Assembly: GCA_018820315.1 (NCBI GenBank)
Contig: JAHJOQ010000059.1
Span: 1-64,000 of the forward strand
DNA length: 64,000 nucleotides
Source: Candidatus Zixiibacteriota bacterium
GTDB taxonomy: Bacteria; Zixibacteria; MSB-5A5; JAABVY01; JAHJOQ01
Reading direction: 5' to 3'
The position numbers were made by a program, and so were the translations under genes. Shown one piece after another: positions 9,061 to 16,916 of the stretch. The notes under the pieces are model-generated. The model did no database searches and had not been told where the DNA came from. It saw only the letters and a program-made list of their open reading frames with translations. Numbering within the stretch: the stretch's first letter is position 1; every line of letters begins with the position of its first letter.

Positions 9061-9167
9061 AGCGTTGACTGTCAAGGAGTTGTAGCTTGCCACCAAATGT
9101 CGGCTGCAACAACTTCTCTGATCGGTCAGCTAAACTTGCTGACAACTGGGTTGGTATAGGGGTAGTT

Positions 9168-11222
9168 ATGCTTAGAAAACATTGCTTAACAATGAGCTTG
9201 CTTACTATGGCGCTGCTGGTGTTTATATCTTGCAGCAGCAACGCTGCGCGATTCACGAGCGAGCCGCAACCAGATCAGCGTTCATCGGGCGAATCTGTGG
9301 CAGATGCAGAGTCTATCGAACCGGATGAGCAGGTTGATCCAGCCGATTCATCGCTTCTCGAGTATGCATACATTGATAGTGACCTGCAGTATCAATTGGA
9401 TCGCGCTGAAGAGGACTACAAGTTCGGCTATTCGGCGATGACCGATTCTAACTGGCTGGAGGCGCAGATCTACTTCGAGAGCGCTATCGAGCTGCTGGCA
9501 GGGCTGGACATAGATCCTGATAGTCCGACGCTCGCTGCCGACATATACAGCCGCCTGATAAACGAGATTATCTCTGAATACAAGCTGACGTTGCTATACA
9601 TCGCCACGCTTCCGGGCGAGGCCTCTCCTTCGGCAGTGATTGCCAGATATGAGGAACTCGACGGGATGTCCAATGGGAGCGTTCTCAAGAGCGTGGAACC
9701 GGAGCAAATACCGGATACCGTGGTGTTTGATATCCCGATTACGTGGAATGAGAAAGTCGAGAAGTGCGTCAACTACTTCCAGACTGTTGGGAAGAAGCCG
9801 TTTGAAATATCTCTCGCCCGATCAGGGAAATATCTGCCGCTGATGGAGAAGATTTTCGCGGAAGAAGGTTTGCCGCATGATCTTGTATACTTGCCATTGA
9901 TTGAGAGCGGCTTTAATCCAAGAGCATATTCCTGGGCACATGCGGTTGGTCACTGGCAGTTCATCTCTTCCACAGGCCGCATGTATGGCCTGAATAGAAG
10001 CTGGTGGTGGGATGAGCGTCGGGATTTTGAGAAATCGACTCGCGCAGCGGCGCGACACCTGAAGGATCTTTACAAGGAAGCAGGCGATTGGTATCTCGCG
10101 CTTCTCGGATATAATGCCGGGATGGGCAATGTCAGGAAGATGATTAAGTATAACAAGACTCGCGATTACTTCAAGATGACAATTCGAAATTCTCAGATGC
10201 GCAACTATGTGCCTCTGTATCTTGCTGCTACCATTATCGCGAAGCAGCCGGAGAAATATGGATTCAACATAGACTATCATGATCCCATTGAGTTCGATAC
10301 CGTCACGGTCAGGAGGTGTCTGGCCCTGGAGGACATCGCAAAGGCCGTTGATTGCTCATTACAGGAGCTTAATGACCTGAATCCGGAACTTCTGAGGAAG
10401 TATACACCACCAGACCGGAAGAGCTATACAGTCAGGATACCCAGGCTGAAGCGAAACGCGTTTTGGGCTGCATACCCGAAGATGAAATCGCCGGAAGAAA
10501 CCAGTTGGGTGCAGCACAAGGTTCGCAAGGGTGAGACCGTTTCCGGTATTGCCCGGAAGTATGGTGTTTCTCAATATGCGATAATCGATGCCAATAACAT
10601 GCGGCGACCATACAGGATAAATATTGGGCAGAATCTGACCGTCCCGGTACCTCTCGGTGAGAAGAAGACATATTCATCCAGTAGCAAATCGAACGATAGC
10701 TACGGAACCGCCGATGGTCACTATGTGGTCCGTTCCGGTGACAATTTGTGGGATATCGCTAAGGCATTCGGTACGACCACGCGTGAACTTCGTGTGCTGA
10801 ACAATCTCCGGCGCGACGGCAGGATTCACCCGGGGCAGAAGCTGTCGATACCGGGAAGGGGTGGCGACAGCTATGCCTCAAGCTCATCGGGATCTTCTGT
10901 CACTAAGCACAAGGTCAGGAAGGGTGACAGTCTCTGGAAGCTTGCCGAAAAGTATGGCACTACTATCAATGAATTGTGCAGACTCAATGGAATTTCGAGG
11001 AATAGAATGCTAACTCCGGGACAGGTTCTGAAAGTCCCCGGCTCGGGCAGTGGATCATCATCGTCCCATAGCTCCAGCCACTATGTCGTCAGGCGGGGGG
11101 ACACCTTGTCCAAGATCGCGAAGAATTTTGGGATTAGCCTCAACAGCCTGATGGCCTGGAACAGCATTACGAATCCTCGCAAACTCTCGGTAGGGACCAA
11201 GCTGCGCGTGAGCGCTGATTAG
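9168..11222 (+). CDS. Lytic murein transglycosylase with LysM repeats (MltD-like), probable lipoprotein
   Basis: The start is taken as ATG 9168 after TAGGGG, because it opens a signal peptide ending 'LLVFISCSSN' whose Cys could be lipidated (Phe at -3 is unusual for a lipobox). The upstream open frame is not protein-like. An acidic region and helices are followed by the SLT catalytic domain (about residues 220-330) with the catalytic Glu246 in LPLIESGFNP and the 'ALLGYNAGMGNVRK' motif. Next come one degenerate and four clear LysM repeats, such as 'YVVRSGDNLWDIAKAFG' and 'YVVRRGDTLSKIAKNFG', split by Ser/Gly linkers. The protein should cleave peptidoglycan glycan strands while held on the wall by LysM. 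MltD proteins are shorter and have fewer LysM units. Confidence 0.92.
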   Translation: MLRKHCLTMSLLTMALLVFISCSSNAARFTSEPQPDQRSSGESVADAESIEPDEQVDPADSSLLEYAYIDSDLQYQLDRAEEDYKFGYSAMTDSNWLEAQIYFESAIELLAGLDIDPDSPTLAADIYSRLINEIISEYKLTLLYIATLPGEASPSAVIARYEELDGMSNGSVLKSVEPEQIPDTVVFDIPITWNEKVEKCVNYFQTVGKKPFEISLARSGKYLPLMEKIFAEEGLPHDLVYLPLIESGFNPRAYSWAHAVGHWQFISSTGRMYGLNRSWWWDERRDFEKSTRAAARHLKDLYKEAGDWYLALLGYNAGMGNVRKMIKYNKTRDYFKMTIRNSQMRNYVPLYLAATIIAKQPEKYGFNIDYHDPIEFDTVTVRRCLALEDIAKAVDCSLQELNDLNPELLRKYTPPDRKSYTVRIPRLKRNAFWAAYPKMKSPEETSWVQHKVRKGETVSGIARKYGVSQYAIIDANNMRRPYRINIGQNLTVPVPLGEKKTYSSSSKSNDSYGTADGHYVVRSGDNLWDIAKAFGTTTRELRVLNNLRRDGRIHPGQKLSIPGRGGDSYASSSSGSSVTKHKVRKGDSLWKLAEKYGTTINELCRLNGISRNRMLTPGQVLKVPGSGSGSSSSHSSSHYVVRRGDTLSKIAKNFGISLNSLMAWNSITNPRKLSVGTKLRVSAD

Positions 11223-11231
11223 GGAGAGTGA

Positions 11232-12125
11232 ATGGCTCGCAAACGTGACATTGCAATCGGTGTAATAATCGCAGTCTGCTTTCTGTTCTTCGTAGGGATC
11301 ATGTTAGTGAGCTTCATGGAGATGTATGGAGGAGATTCTGATCTCTTTGCATTTGAGGACAGGATTGCGATTGTCGACGTTGTCGGTGCAATCACTTCTT
11401 CCGACGAAGTCGTGAGGCAGATCAAGAAATACGGCGATGACGGTTCCATCGCAGCAATCCTGATCCATGTCGACTCACCCGGCGGCGGTGTCGCGGTGAC
11501 CCAGGAGATCTATGACGAGCTGATGCGTGTCAGGATAGAGAAAGAGAAGCTGATTGTAGTATCGATGTCCTCTGTTGGCGCATCGGGCGGATATTATCTG
11601 TCCTGTGCGGCAGACCAGATCATTGCAAACCCCGGCACTCTGACAGGCTCGATCGGAGTAATACTGGATTATATGATCTTGGAAGGGCTTGCCGACAAAG
11701 TCGGAATCAGCCATGAGACGATTAAGTCGGGAGACGTGAAGGATGTTGGGTCGCCATGGCGGCAGCCGACTGAGAAGGACCGCCAGATGCTGCAGGCTGC
11801 GATCGATGATACTTATGAACAATTCGTGGAAGTCGTCATGGAAGGACGCAATCTTACGCGAGAAGAAGTTCTCGAGATCGCGGACGGATCGATATTCACC
11901 GGTCGTCAGGCGCTTGACTTGGGTCTGGTCGACAGGCTCGGCAGTTACGAAGAGGCGATCCGGATCACTGCAGAACTGGTTGGAATAGAAGGCGAGCCGT
12001 CAACAATCAAGGAGAGGCCAAGGAGACGTGCGACTTTGTGGGATGTCCTGCAGGGAACGGTCCTCGGATTCGTAGAGGAGAGAGTGCTGGCGCCCGGTCC
12101 AGAACTTAAGTACTTATTCAGATAA
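11232..12125 (+). CDS. sppA: Signal peptide peptidase SppA, short (S49) form
   Basis: A 297-residue membrane protein with one N-terminal transmembrane helix (about residues 10-27) and a single S49 protease domain. The nucleophile is probably Ser118 in VGASGGYYLSCAAD and the general base Lys170 in 'SGDVKDVGS', matching the Ser-Lys dyad of SppA. The length fits the single-domain SppA of Gram-positives and many other phyla, not the double-length E. coli enzyme. It degrades released signal peptides in the membrane. GGGAGAG precedes the ATG. The FmdB-type gene begins one base after its stop codon, so they share a transcript. Confidence 0.92.
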   Translation: MARKRDIAIGVIIAVCFLFFVGIMLVSFMEMYGGDSDLFAFEDRIAIVDVVGAITSSDEVVRQIKKYGDDGSIAAILIHVDSPGGGVAVTQEIYDELMRVRIEKEKLIVVSMSSVGASGGYYLSCAADQIIANPGTLTGSIGVILDYMILEGLADKVGISHETIKSGDVKDVGSPWRQPTEKDRQMLQAAIDDTYEQFVEVVMEGRNLTREEVLEIADGSIFTGRQALDLGLVDRLGSYEEAIRITAELVGIEGEPSTIKERPRRRATLWDVLQGTVLGFVEERVLAPGPELKYLFR

Positions 12126-12126
12126 T

Positions 12127-12342
12127 ATGCCTATATATGAGTTTCGATGTGCGAGTTGTTTAGCGGAGTTTGAGCTTTTGATCGGAATGGGCCACAAAGA
12201 TGTGAGTTGTCCGGAATGCGGGAGCGGTGAATGCGAAAAACAATTCTCGACTTTCGGTTTCTCGTCCGGTGGGAAGTTCACTTCATCACACGGGAGCGCA
12301 TGTTCCGGATGCAGCAAGGGATCGTGCAAAAACTGTAATTAA
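12127..12342 (+). CDS. FmdB-family zinc ribbon protein
   Basis: A 71-residue protein opening with 'MPIYEFRCASCLAEFELLI', the hallmark of the FmdB/CxxC_CxxC_SSSS family. A second pair, CPECGS, completes the metal-binding ribbon. The C-terminal 20 residues are rich in Ser, Gly and Cys ('SACSGCSKGSCKNC'), as usual in this family. It starts one base after the sppA stop. The biological role of the family is not established; 'regulatory protein FmdB' comes from one methylotroph operon. Confidence 0.88.
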   Translation: MPIYEFRCASCLAEFELLIGMGHKDVSCPECGSGECEKQFSTFGFSSGGKFTSSHGSACSGCSKGSCKNCN

Positions 12343-12386: not shown

Positions 12387-12680
12387 ATGACCAAAGCTGA
12401 TCTGGTCGAACAAGTGGCCGAGAAGACTGGTCTGACCCGTACAGATGTCGCGGTTGTTGTCGACTCGTTTCTCGACACGATCAAGCGGACAATGGAAGAC
12501 GGGCACAATATCGAGATTCGCGGTTTTGGAACATTTAAGATCAAACTGCGCAAGGCGAGGAAGGCGAGAAATCCTCGAACTGGCGATGTTGTACCGGTTC
12601 CAGACCGAAAAGTCCCGGTTTTCAAGCCATCGAATGAGTTCAAGAATATGATTACCAAGCTACCGCTTGAAGAACAGTAA
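12387..12680 (+). CDS. HU/IHF-family DNA-binding protein
   Basis: A 97-residue nucleoid protein with the complete HU/IHF layout: N-terminal dimerisation helices 'MTKADLVEQVAEKTGLT', the core 'IEIRGFGTFKIK', and the DNA-embracing arm around 'ARNPRTGDVVPVPDRKVP', whose Pro intercalates at DNA bends. The ribosome site AAGGAGGAGGG is very strong, fitting an abundant protein. It is followed by the tiny bS22-like gene. Whether it acts as an HU homodimer or an IHF subunit cannot be decided from sequence. Confidence 0.95.
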   Translation: MTKADLVEQVAEKTGLTRTDVAVVVDSFLDTIKRTMEDGHNIEIRGFGTFKIKLRKARKARNPRTGDVVPVPDRKVPVFKPSNEFKNMITKLPLEEQ

Positions 12681-12766
12681 GATTTTGCTTGCATTTTCCG
12701 GGCTTTCGGTTATTTTGTCCTTTCTGTCAGCATACCGGAAACAACGGTTTTGGTTCAGGAGGATAG

Positions 12767-12862
12767 ATGCCGTCTGGCAAGAAACGTAAGCGGTTGAAAA
12801 TCAAGACCCACAAGCGGAAGAAGAGAAGGAAACGCGATCGTCACAAAAAGAAGATCAGGTAA
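12767..12862 (+). CDS. 31-residue AURKAIP1/COX24-domain ribosomal protein (bS22-like)
   Basis: Reading directly from ATG 12767 gives 31 residues starting MPSGKKRKRLKIKTHKRKKR and ending in TAA at 12862. About two thirds are Lys, Arg or His and there are no acidic residues except one Asp. The pattern matches the small AURKAIP1/COX24-domain proteins of Bacteroidota, relatives of mitochondrial mS38 and mycobacterial bS22, which sit on the small ribosomal subunit. AGGAGG lies six bases ahead of the start. It follows the HU gene and ends just before a strong terminator, consistent with an abundant basic protein. Such genes are often missed because of their length. Confidence 0.85.
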   Translation: MPSGKKRKRLKIKTHKRKKRRKRDRHKKKIR

Positions 12863-12891
12863 TTTCTTGTTCTCTACTTTGATATTAAGGC

Positions 12892-12919
12892 AAAGGCCAC
12901 CTTATCAGGTGGCCTTTTG
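12892..12919 (+). terminator. Rho-independent terminator after the bS22-like gene
   Basis: The stem AAAGGCCACC (12892-12901) pairs with GGTGGCCTTT (12908-12917) across a six-base loop and runs into TTTTGCTGTTTG. It closes the sppA to bS22-like transcript. Confidence 0.85.
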
Positions 12920-12960
12920 CTGTTTGTGCGATGACCTTGAATCAGAAGAGAATATCGAAC

Positions 12961-12991
12961 AAAAACAATCGCCCGCTGATTAAGCGGGCGA
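12961..12991 (-). terminator. Terminator of the CBS-domain gene (leftward)
   Basis: TCGCCCGCT (12969-12977) and AGCGGGCGA (12983-12991) form a perfect nine-pair stem with a five-base loop. Read on the minus strand the stem is followed by TTGTTTTTG, so it fits the end of the leftward gene that stops at 13021. Confidence 0.75.
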
Positions 12992-13020
12992 CTCTGCAGA
13001 GGAATAAGATGCGTGTAAAT

Positions 13021-13797: not shown

Positions 13798-14508
13798 ATG
13801 AGGTTTAGAACATTACTATTCTTGCTGCTTGTCGCAGCGATGCTGATAATCGTTCCAGCAAATCACGCGATCCTCAGATGGATTGGACTCGATGCGACGC
13901 TCCATGGAGAGGAACTACGTTACGGTACAGGTACCAGCCTGACCGTCAACGATTCGAATACGGGGATGGACGGTTCGGATGCTGTCGATCCTCGTATCGA
14001 GGATGATCGAGTCAGCGGTAGCAATAACTCACTCTCAGCCGCAGACGGAAATATCGATCCCACGCCAACACTAAACAAATCAGATATATGTTCAGATGCT
14101 CCCCCGATGATTGCCTCCCAGCCGATTGAGATAAATCGTGCCGGGCGCAATCCGGGGGACACTCTGGTGTTTGATAATTCCAATGTGACGATAGAGAATT
14201 CAACCGCGCACAGACGAGTCGAAAGCTCGGATCAGGCAGTCGAACCGGAGCTTCACCAAAACAACCCAAATCCTTTCAATTCGAGCACCAACATATCGTT
14301 CGTGTTGCCGGAGGGGGGCGAGGTTTCGCTGGAGCTTTTCAATATTCTCGGTCAGAAAGTGAATGAAGTGTATCGAGGATATGTAGATGCCGGATTCTCT
14401 GAATTCGCTGTCGATAAATCGATTCACAATCTATCCAGTGGCATCTATTTCTATCGACTCAAGTTTGATAGCCTATCGCTAGTGAAGAAAATGATAGTAT
14501 TGAGATGA
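13798..14508 (+). CDS. Exported protein with a type IX type A-like sorting domain
   Basis: A 236-residue protein with a strong N-terminal signal or anchor (MRFRTLLFLLLVAAMLIIVP), a polar Asp/Ser/Asn-rich middle without recognisable domain (about 40-150), and a C-terminal sorting domain. That domain begins 'LHQNNPNPFNSSTNISF' and continues 'GEVSLELFNILGQKVNEVY' to 'SSGIYFYRLKF' and a last 'KKMIVLR', the classic type A signal. It is preceded by GGAGGAGGAG and followed by a strong terminator, so it is a single-gene transcript. Most of the protein is sorting domain plus linker, so its role may be as a small surface peptide carrier. This is unknown. Confidence 0.85.
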   Translation: MRFRTLLFLLLVAAMLIIVPANHAILRWIGLDATLHGEELRYGTGTSLTVNDSNTGMDGSDAVDPRIEDDRVSGSNNSLSAADGNIDPTPTLNKSDICSDAPPMIASQPIEINRAGRNPGDTLVFDNSNVTIENSTAHRRVESSDQAVEPELHQNNPNPFNSSTNISFVLPEGGEVSLELFNILGQKVNEVYRGYVDAGFSEFAVDKSIHNLSSGIYFYRLKFDSLSLVKKMIVLR

Positions 14509-14615: not shown

Positions 14616-16916
14616 ATGTCGTTAATTGTTGATATGAAGTCTGCATACGCAATCTGCGCGATAATAATGATTCTGCTGTCCGCATCTGCATATTCGATCA
14701 CGATTGACGATGGCTATCCTGCACGGAGCAAGGCTGACCGAGATGAGGATTACGAAGCTTCGGCAATACTCGATGCCAACGAGATTGGTATGCACATCTC
14801 TAACAATGGGTCACTTGCAAGAGACGAGAGTTTTGAGCATGATACCTACTCCGGGTTTTACTATCCGCTCGACTCTGGACTGATCCTGATGTCCTCAGCA
14901 GGGATATGGGTTTATTCTCAGGTGAATTTCACTCAACGTGTAGCGATGGTGTTCGGAAGATCTGAGTTCTCACCAGGTCCATACGACCACGACCAAGTTG
15001 AAGACAGCTCCATTTTCCGAGCATACAAAATAACGAGTAACGACACGCTGAGCCCTTCCCAGGATTGGATCGATTGGCCAAGCGAGTGGGGCGCTCCCGT
15101 CAACGAGCGGGGAGAGCCGCTACTGACCGGAGATCAGAGCATCTGGACAGTATTCAATGATCGAGATACTACGAATCATAGTTTGAGAGGAGGCAGTGAT
15201 CTGCCAATAGGAATGGAGGTTCAGCTTTACGCATATGCTTACAGGAATGCAGGATTGCTGGACAATGCGATCTTTCTGGATTACAGTTTCGTGAACAAGT
15301 CCGGCACTGATTGGCGGAATTTCATGGTTGGTCTTTGGTCCGATGCCGACATCGGCTTCTACCGTGATGACAAAGGCGGGACCGATTCGTCTTTGTCCAC
15401 AGTCTATACTTACACACTCGAAGGGGACAGCGAGCTTCCTGCTGATTTCTTGCCGGTAGTGGGCATGATGATGCTCGAATCCCCGTCGTCGCCATTTACC
15501 GGTCGTCCATCCGGCTCTGCAAACGTGTTGAGAGACTTCTTCAGAAGCTACTCTGTTGACATGACTCTGAATATTCTCCAAGGCATGACAGTCGACGGAG
15601 CGGAGTACATTGACCCAACGACCGGCAGCTCGACACATTATCCATACGGTGGCGACCCGAGGTCGGGAGATGGATGGCTCGATGAGGGCAAAGGCGACAG
15701 GCAAATCATAATATCATCTGCGCCTGTGGAGTTCAGCCGCGTTGACACTCTCTCGCTCAGTGCGGCATTTGTCGCTGGCTCCGGAAAGACTAACGAGGAT
15801 GCGGTCGAGAATTTCTACGAAGTAGTTCACGTAGTGCACGATTTCAAGACTTTAGGTCTGAATGGCTTGGATGCCGAGCAGAATGTTAGAGATGGCACGA
15901 TTCAAACCGTGTCATTTATTCCGCCAGAGCAAACATGGTTCATCGGCAGTGACTGGGGAGGTTCAGCACTTTCAGGCGGAATCGGTTTGGCCGGCAGGCT
16001 ATGGGGCACGTCGCTGAATAGGGCAGACAATGTCGATGTCGAATTTCTGTTTGCACCCGGAGGCGGACAGGAGGCCGCAAGGTTTGTCGAGCAGGGAGGA
16101 TTGTACAGATTTGTGGGCATTTCAACGGTGCCATTCTTCTGCCGTCGTTCGGCTGATTCGACGCTGGTGAATGTTCTGGTTGTAGACGCAAACAAGGACG
16201 GCAAGTGGACTGTCGCTGGTGAGGATGCCGCAGCTCCTGATCTTGTGCTGGTCACTCAGTCTGAATATGATGAAACGCCGCTCGCATATTACGAGAATAA
16301 GGTTTTCCCGAACGCCGCTCTTGATACTGACCTGATGTACGCGATGGCGCTATCACTGAAGCCGGGTCATGAGCGAAAGAACATCCGTGGCGGTCAAAAG
16401 CTGCAAATAAGAGTGGAGACCGAGGGTGAGACAGCTTCTGCCGATAGTGTCGATTTTTGGGATGTTGTCGTCGGGCTCGACAAGTCCGCTTCGATCGCTC
16501 TGCATGATCTATATGTCTACGACAAAGATTATTCGATGTATCTTGACAAGCCCGACCAGTTCAAAGTGTTACACCCCGATTTCAGAATCATCGGGGATGA
16601 TACAGCGCGCGTCAGAATCACATTCCACCCATCCGACACCACGATCTGTTCTGCCACTTTGACGATTGTAGCGGACGACTTCAATATGCCCGTCAAGAAA
16701 ATCGTATTGACCGGAAAGGGGAGAGCCTGGCCATTGGCGGGCGATTTAAGGCCGGACGGTTCGCTTGATCTGCTTGACGTAATCGCTTTCATCCGCTATC
16801 TTTACAGCAGTTACATACTTCCGGAAGAGATCGTTGCCCTCGATCTGGACGAGTCAGGAGACGTTACACTCTCTGATCTTGTGCTGCTGATTGACACCAT
16901 TTTCTCGCACGATTAG
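14616..16916 (+). CDS. Large exported protein ending in a dockerin-type repeat pair
   Basis: A 766-residue protein with an N-terminal hydrophobic export signal. The frame opens at ATG 14616, but ATG 14634 (MKSAYAICAIIMILL) gives a more typical signal peptide; neither has a good ribosome site. The body is beta-rich and aromatic, without a domain I can name. The last 60 residues hold two EF-hand-like dockerin repeats, 'DLRPDGSLDLLDVIAFIRYL' and 'DLDESGDVTLSDLVLLIDTI', with the Asp/Ser calcium-loop pattern. In cellulolytic bacteria dockerins bind cohesins; in FCB phyla they occur on many exported proteins with unknown partners. Two cohesin-like exported proteins are coded at 31903-33103. Confidence 0.8.
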   Translation: MSLIVDMKSAYAICAIIMILLSASAYSITIDDGYPARSKADRDEDYEASAILDANEIGMHISNNGSLARDESFEHDTYSGFYYPLDSGLILMSSAGIWVYSQVNFTQRVAMVFGRSEFSPGPYDHDQVEDSSIFRAYKITSNDTLSPSQDWIDWPSEWGAPVNERGEPLLTGDQSIWTVFNDRDTTNHSLRGGSDLPIGMEVQLYAYAYRNAGLLDNAIFLDYSFVNKSGTDWRNFMVGLWSDADIGFYRDDKGGTDSSLSTVYTYTLEGDSELPADFLPVVGMMMLESPSSPFTGRPSGSANVLRDFFRSYSVDMTLNILQGMTVDGAEYIDPTTGSSTHYPYGGDPRSGDGWLDEGKGDRQIIISSAPVEFSRVDTLSLSAAFVAGSGKTNEDAVENFYEVVHVVHDFKTLGLNGLDAEQNVRDGTIQTVSFIPPEQTWFIGSDWGGSALSGGIGLAGRLWGTSLNRADNVDVEFLFAPGGGQEAARFVEQGGLYRFVGISTVPFFCRRSADSTLVNVLVVDANKDGKWTVAGEDAAAPDLVLVTQSEYDETPLAYYENKVFPNAALDTDLMYAMALSLKPGHERKNIRGGQKLQIRVETEGETASADSVDFWDVVVGLDKSASIALHDLYVYDKDYSMYLDKPDQFKVLHPDFRIIGDDTARVRITFHPSDTTICSATLTIVADDFNMPVKKIVLTGKGRAWPLAGDLRPDGSLDLLDVIAFIRYLYSSYILPEEIVALDLDESGDVTLSDLVLLIDTIFSHD

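Follow-up and report, generated by a model that had tools for sequence, protein, structure and literature searches.

The bS22 gene and its surroundings

The window, i.e., the whole 64-kb stretch of DNA that was analyzed, carries a series of genes on the same strand which leads from a signal peptide peptidase via a zinc-ribbon protein and an HU/IHF-family protein to a frame of only 31 codons (Table 1). Its translation reads MPSGKKRKRLKIKTHKRKKRRKRDRHKKKIR, directly followed by a stop codon. With 20 of 31 residues being Lys or Arg (65%), the product has the size (about 28-33 residues) and the extreme Lys/Arg richness expected of ribosomal protein bS22. The gene was found as a single copy in its own genome and starts 86 bases behind the end of the HU gene.

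Table 1. Genes and sequence features at the bS22 locus (positions in the window).
Feature	Position	Strand	Evidence and remarks
Signal peptide peptidase SppA gene	11232..12125	+	TIGR00706, 238.9 bits (cut-off 155.45); conserved upstream neighbor
FmdB-type zinc-ribbon gene	12127..12342	+	TIGR02605, 55.7 bits (cut-off 31.3); partly conserved upstream neighbor
HU/IHF-family DNA-binding protein gene	12387..12680	+	Pfam PF00216, E 2.1e-32; conserved upstream partner
Shine-Dalgarno (SD) site AGGAGG	12757..12762	+	Sequence; 4 nt before the bS22 ATG
bS22 gene	12767..12862	+	31 codons plus stop; translation, homology to ribosome chains, match in 116/132 genomes
Intrinsic-terminator-like hairpin	12892..12917	+	11-bp stem, 4-nt loop; 29 bases after the bS22 stop codon

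The hairpin behind the gene had been called a perfect terminator in the first-pass annotation. The stem is indeed perfect over its whole length, but the T tract is short and interrupted, so the wording was slightly generous. For the region 12885-12930 a folding energy of -21.9 kcal/mol was obtained, with a z of -4.5 relative to 200 shuffles. Facing bS22, a CBS-domain gene is encoded on the opposite strand and possesses its own terminator-like hairpin at 12967-12993.

Further frames of the window attracted attention by their C-termini. The frame at 13798-14508 ends with NPFNSSTNISFVLPEGG...GIYFYRL...KKMIVLR, which we take to resemble a type IX secretion sorting domain. A frame of 766 residues (14616-16916) carries the C-terminal repeats GDLRPDGSLDLLDVIAFIRYL... 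and LDLDESGDVTLSDLVLLIDTIF, two presumably dockerin-like units, and the frame at 9087-11222 combines a candidate enzyme region, presumably lytic-transglycosylase-like, with several C-terminal repeats that we assume to be LysM-like.

Conservation of the HU-bS22 gene pair

The neighborhood of bS22 was compared for 30 loci (own locus and 29 others), from which one (L018, with a first codon reading Leu) was set aside, leaving 29 examined loci. In 28 of them, HU lies upstream of bS22 in the same orientation, and the only exception (L011) lies on a contig starting 51 nt before the gene. The position after HU, as described in the first-pass annotation, is conserved in these loci. SppA was found upstream in 26 and FmdB in 13 of the 29 loci (E up to 1e-4), counts for which several loci were shortened by contig ends and a short, diverged FmdB could be missed. 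At seven of the 29 loci (L012, L019, L020, L023, L025, L026, L030), bS22 is followed at a distance of no more than about 55 nt by a frame in the same orientation that contains the motif VISDTH or VVSDTH, presumably a metallophosphoesterase of the YfcE kind. Judged from these frames, the operon may extend past bS22 in some lineages.

The same gene pair was approached from the HU side, using the best 80 of 544 HU relatives. The named relatives among these 80 place the window in Candidatus Zixiibacteriota. Within these best 80, bS22 followed just after HU in all 19 Zixibacteria-like loci (L031-L049), while the other 61 had bS22 on the same locus in six cases (L054, L072, L081, L103, L105, L106), at L103 about 760 nt beyond HU. 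One of the 19, L045, is titled Ignavibacterium sp., but bS22 of its genome (G171) shares contig number and coordinates with that of G101 from the window's class, so the title is probably a misnomer. Both locus sets overlap (L033 and L004, for example, are from the same genome), and their counts are not independent. HU was adjacent to bS22 for both copies from Krumholzibacteriota, the one from Eisenbacteria, both from Gemmatimonadota and the unclassified L117. For the Ignavibacteriae copy HU was located 759 nt away, and no HU turned up in the roughly 1.5 kb around the copies of Fibrobacter and AUK196 (L115, L124). We regard the conserved HU-bS22 pair as a modest new element, which may nevertheless have been described before. 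It provides a practical rule for finding bS22 in Zixibacteria, namely to look right behind HU.

Translation signals and selection

Two observations had been named beforehand as speaking against a real gene, a missing translation signal and the absence of homologs at the equivalent position in relatives. Homologs are present there, in the conserved order described above, and a strict SD motif was found upstream of 26 of the 29 bS22 copies, with two weaker sites and one copy without any. Only 11% of random stretches from the same loci carry the strict motif. Both Gemmatimonadota copies begin with TTG. Over the whole 64 kb, an SD motif preceded some possible start within the first 40 codons in 31 of 43 long frames; a shifted control gave 12 of 43. 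Directly before the very first start, the motif was seen in 20 of 43.

The substitution pattern points in the same direction. Compared with its nearest relative, which belongs to a different genus within the family, the gene of the window shows 14 differences over the first 87 nucleotides and none in the residues encoded by the first 29 codons. The copies L005 and L006 are distinguished by 12 nucleotides, every one at a third codon position, and in more distant pairs, where 18 to 29 nucleotides were exchanged, at most 4 residues were altered. Over the 29 loci the mean non-major fraction was 0.13, 0.07, and 0.42 at first, second, and third codon positions, respectively. As substitutions were mostly silent and third positions vary far more than the others, the gene is under purifying selection. 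Together with the SD site, the conserved place and the homology described below, this bears out the initial reading of the 31-codon frame as a real gene.

Homology to chains of solved ribosomes

Searching solved structures with the sequence, three ribosome chains were aligned along the whole length of bS22: 7jil_5, which we take to be from the ribosome of Flavobacterium johnsoniae, 9i5v_10, and 8fmw_V, presumably from the Borrelia ribosome. E-values ranged from 2.1e-6 (7jil_5) to 5.5e-5 in the single-sequence search and from 1.7e-14 (7jil_5) to 2.1e-10 in the profile search, with 22/30, 22/30, and 19/28 identical residues for 7jil_5, 9i5v_10, and 8fmw_V, respectively. The only further match of the single-sequence search was a polymerase chain at E 6.9. 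In order to control for composition, the window protein was shuffled 3000 times per target chain. Real scores of 118, 118, and 107 were obtained against best shuffles of 67, 78, and 74 (same order of chains), which places the real matches 11 to 13 standard deviations above shuffles of the same composition. Since the real scores lie far above every shuffle, the homology goes beyond the shared Lys/Arg richness. The molecule name of 9i5v_10 is AURKAIP1/COX24 domain-containing protein and that of 8fmw_V is bS22. We noted a naming conflict for the identical 30-residue chain of 7jil_5 and same-sequence PDB entries, which is called both 30S S22 and 50S L38.

The whole-length homology to solved bS22 chains supports the first-pass assignment as an AURKAIP1/bS22-like ribosomal protein. 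The F. johnsoniae protein (7jil chain 5) also shares the length class, the MPSGKKRKR start, and the RHKKK end. The window gene has a strong SD site, whereas Bacteroidota rarely use such sites. The F. johnsoniae bS22 is mentioned in an excerpt of PMC10618245. Borrelia burgdorferi bS22 (bb0822; 8fmw chain V) is likewise the product of a short, overlooked gene, which according to the same excerpt was earlier unannotated and starts with GUG (PMC10618245), whereas the window gene starts with ATG. With 61% Lys/Arg and a lysine at position 10, chain 8fmw_V agrees with the description of Borrelia bS22 given there (PMC10618245, excerpt). In that study, bS22 was the single ribosomal protein to escape tryptic LC-MS/MS (PMC10618245).

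Among the PDB matches up to E 10 no chain was recognizable as mycobacterial or otherwise actinobacterial, the organism of 9i5v not being given. The link to actinobacterial bS22 therefore rests on published structure overlays. In the excerpted texts of PMC10085706 and PMC10618245, bS22 of Mycobacterium and Cutibacterium fills the same pocket in the structures that the window protein would be expected to occupy.

Family models did not decide the assignment. The proposed check with a COX24/AURKAIP1 profile returned a match of Pfam COX24_C (PF08213), but with 16 bits (E 0.011) it remained below the gathering cut-off of 23 bits. With E up to 1 allowed, this model was matched by eight of 12 related proteins, the best of them at 0.0035, and NCBIfam models gave no match to the window protein. 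In a COX24_C search of the own genome (E up to 1) bS22 was missed and a weak match on another contig was returned instead; the model alone would thus miss the gene. Three of 14 control genomes matched, one of them above the cut-off. Genes of the bS22 type are not unknown to annotators, as seen from the name of the 9i5v chain and from C. acnes bS22, which in an extract of PMC10085706 is already annotated as "AURKAIP1/COX24 domain-containing protein".

The mitochondrial mS38 chain 8a22_BC was matched marginally (E 0.062 and 0.015 in two profile searches) via the core KIKxHKxxKRR. Variants of the form KIKKHKLRKRR were seen in L028 and L029; the mS38 match spans about 16 residues, too short to decide on an mS38 origin. 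Human mS38 is described in an excerpt of PMC10618245 as longer than bS22, while chain 8a22_BC has 31 residues. Other than in the original proposal, which named bS22 of mycobacteria and mS38 of mitochondria as relatives, the closest solved relatives were of the Flavobacterium/Borrelia type, and the link to mS38 stayed marginal.

Occurrence across genomes

A total of 116 of 132 genomes in the phylum set, all from the class of the window or nearer, contained bS22, and 75 of the 78 best genomes did so. Two matches in one genome were observed once among the 116 positives (G034). In a set of 39 relatives, own genome included, 36 were positive, with 33 of 33 for the best genomes. Eight of the 16 negative genomes were checked, including all three misses among the best 78. 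In all eight the partner HU was missing as well: the HU relative reached just 30-34% identity in five genomes, and the remaining three gave no HU match. The joint absence of bS22 and HU fits assembly gaps; loss of the whole locus would fit too.

Whole-genome searches for 40 of the 80 listed HU loci yielded bS22 in 13 of 40 genomes, a search in which strongly diverged copies could escape the profile and for which completeness of the genomes was not given. Zixibacteria-like genomes were positive in four of four cases (also part of the phylum set), others in nine of 36, and genomes with Gemmatimonadota-type titles in only two of 26. A search of the open-licence literature found no paper pairing bS22/AURKAIP1/COX24 or "ribosomal protein S22" with Zixibacteria. 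As judged from sequence, a known and easily overlooked, otherwise ordinary protein is almost certainly extended here to a little-studied phylum of uncultured bacteria.

Alternative readings of the frame

That a Lys/Arg-rich frame without function arose here by chance is a reading to which we assign a practically negligible probability. The frame is short and stays under the Pfam cut-off, as expected for such a case, but matches in 116 of 132 genomes, mostly silent substitutions, SD motifs at 26 of 29 copies, and the shuffle control all contradict it. A functional product might still work outside the ribosome, as a basic nucleoid-associated or RNA-binding peptide acting together with HU. The conservation of the gene beside HU would suit this idea, and Lys/Arg-rich tails also bind DNA. 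Against it stand the agreement with solved ribosome chains, residue by residue and over the full length, which exceeds composition by far, and the copies of Fibrobacter and AUK196, which keep the protein with no HU found nearby. We therefore consider such a peptide very improbable.

Slightly less probable still is a reading in which the ribosomal protein also plays a main role away from the ribosome, for example as an antimicrobial peptide. Free cationic peptides often act at amounts like 80 µM, which counts against this reading when the published experiments are considered. In excerpts of PMC10085706, C. acnes bS22 inhibited the growth of E. coli and staphylococci as well as a cell-free system, and 80 µM were used for 80% inhibition of the latter.

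Proposed role of bS22 in the ribosome

We consider it highly probable that the gene belongs to a Zixibacteria genome and encodes the ribosomal protein bS22 of the small subunit, a judgement covering the identity jointly with the expression and the 30S role proposed here. bS22 would probably share a transcript with HU, which perhaps includes sppA and fmdB too and ends at the hairpin, and the strong SD site of the gene itself would serve its translation. By analogy to the solved relatives, the most likely fold of the protein is a short, bent and basic helix that would be buried in the 30S subunit. The helix would sit in a pocket of the 16S helices h2, h27, h44, and h45 and touch the 23S helix H67/H68, where it may brace the decoding region and add an inter-subunit contact. 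For Borrelia bS22, an excerpt of PMC10618245 describes a pocket of 16S h2, h27, h44, and h45 with a contact to 23S H68. C. acnes bS22 is placed between h27, h44, and h45, contacts H67, adds a subunit bridge, and may affect head movement (excerpt of PMC10085706). In the mitochondrial case, knock-down of AURKAIP1 lowered the synthesis of all 13 mitochondrial products, as stated in an extract of PMC3726836.

An excerpt of a paper on mS38 located bS22 at a similar place and speculated on a connection of bS22/mS38 with leaderless or SD-less translation or initiation (PMC6582356). Among 58 genomes searched, 21 carry GGCTGGATCACCTCCTT with the CCTCC anti-SD and 37 gave no exact match; the own genome belongs to the 58 and not to the 21, as the search for the exact 16S 3' end found no copy there. 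With SD sites in use at the bS22 loci and the CCTCC anti-SD in 21 of 58 genomes, bS22 thus occurs in SD-using lineages as well.

Tentatively, and with slightly less than an even chance of being right, we propose bS22 as an old core subunit of the ribosome within the FCB group, namely in its Zixibacteria-Krumholzibacteria-Eisenbacteria-Gemmatimonadota part. Ancestrally, it would have been expressed together with HU, and most Gemmatimonadota would have lost it. Working in SD-using lineages, it would then serve the structural bracing of the 30S subunit rather than aid SD-less or leaderless initiation. Zixibacteria are another lineage that pairs bS22 with strong SD sites, and in view of the published speculation (PMC6582356, excerpt) such a lineage is useful for testing what bS22 does.
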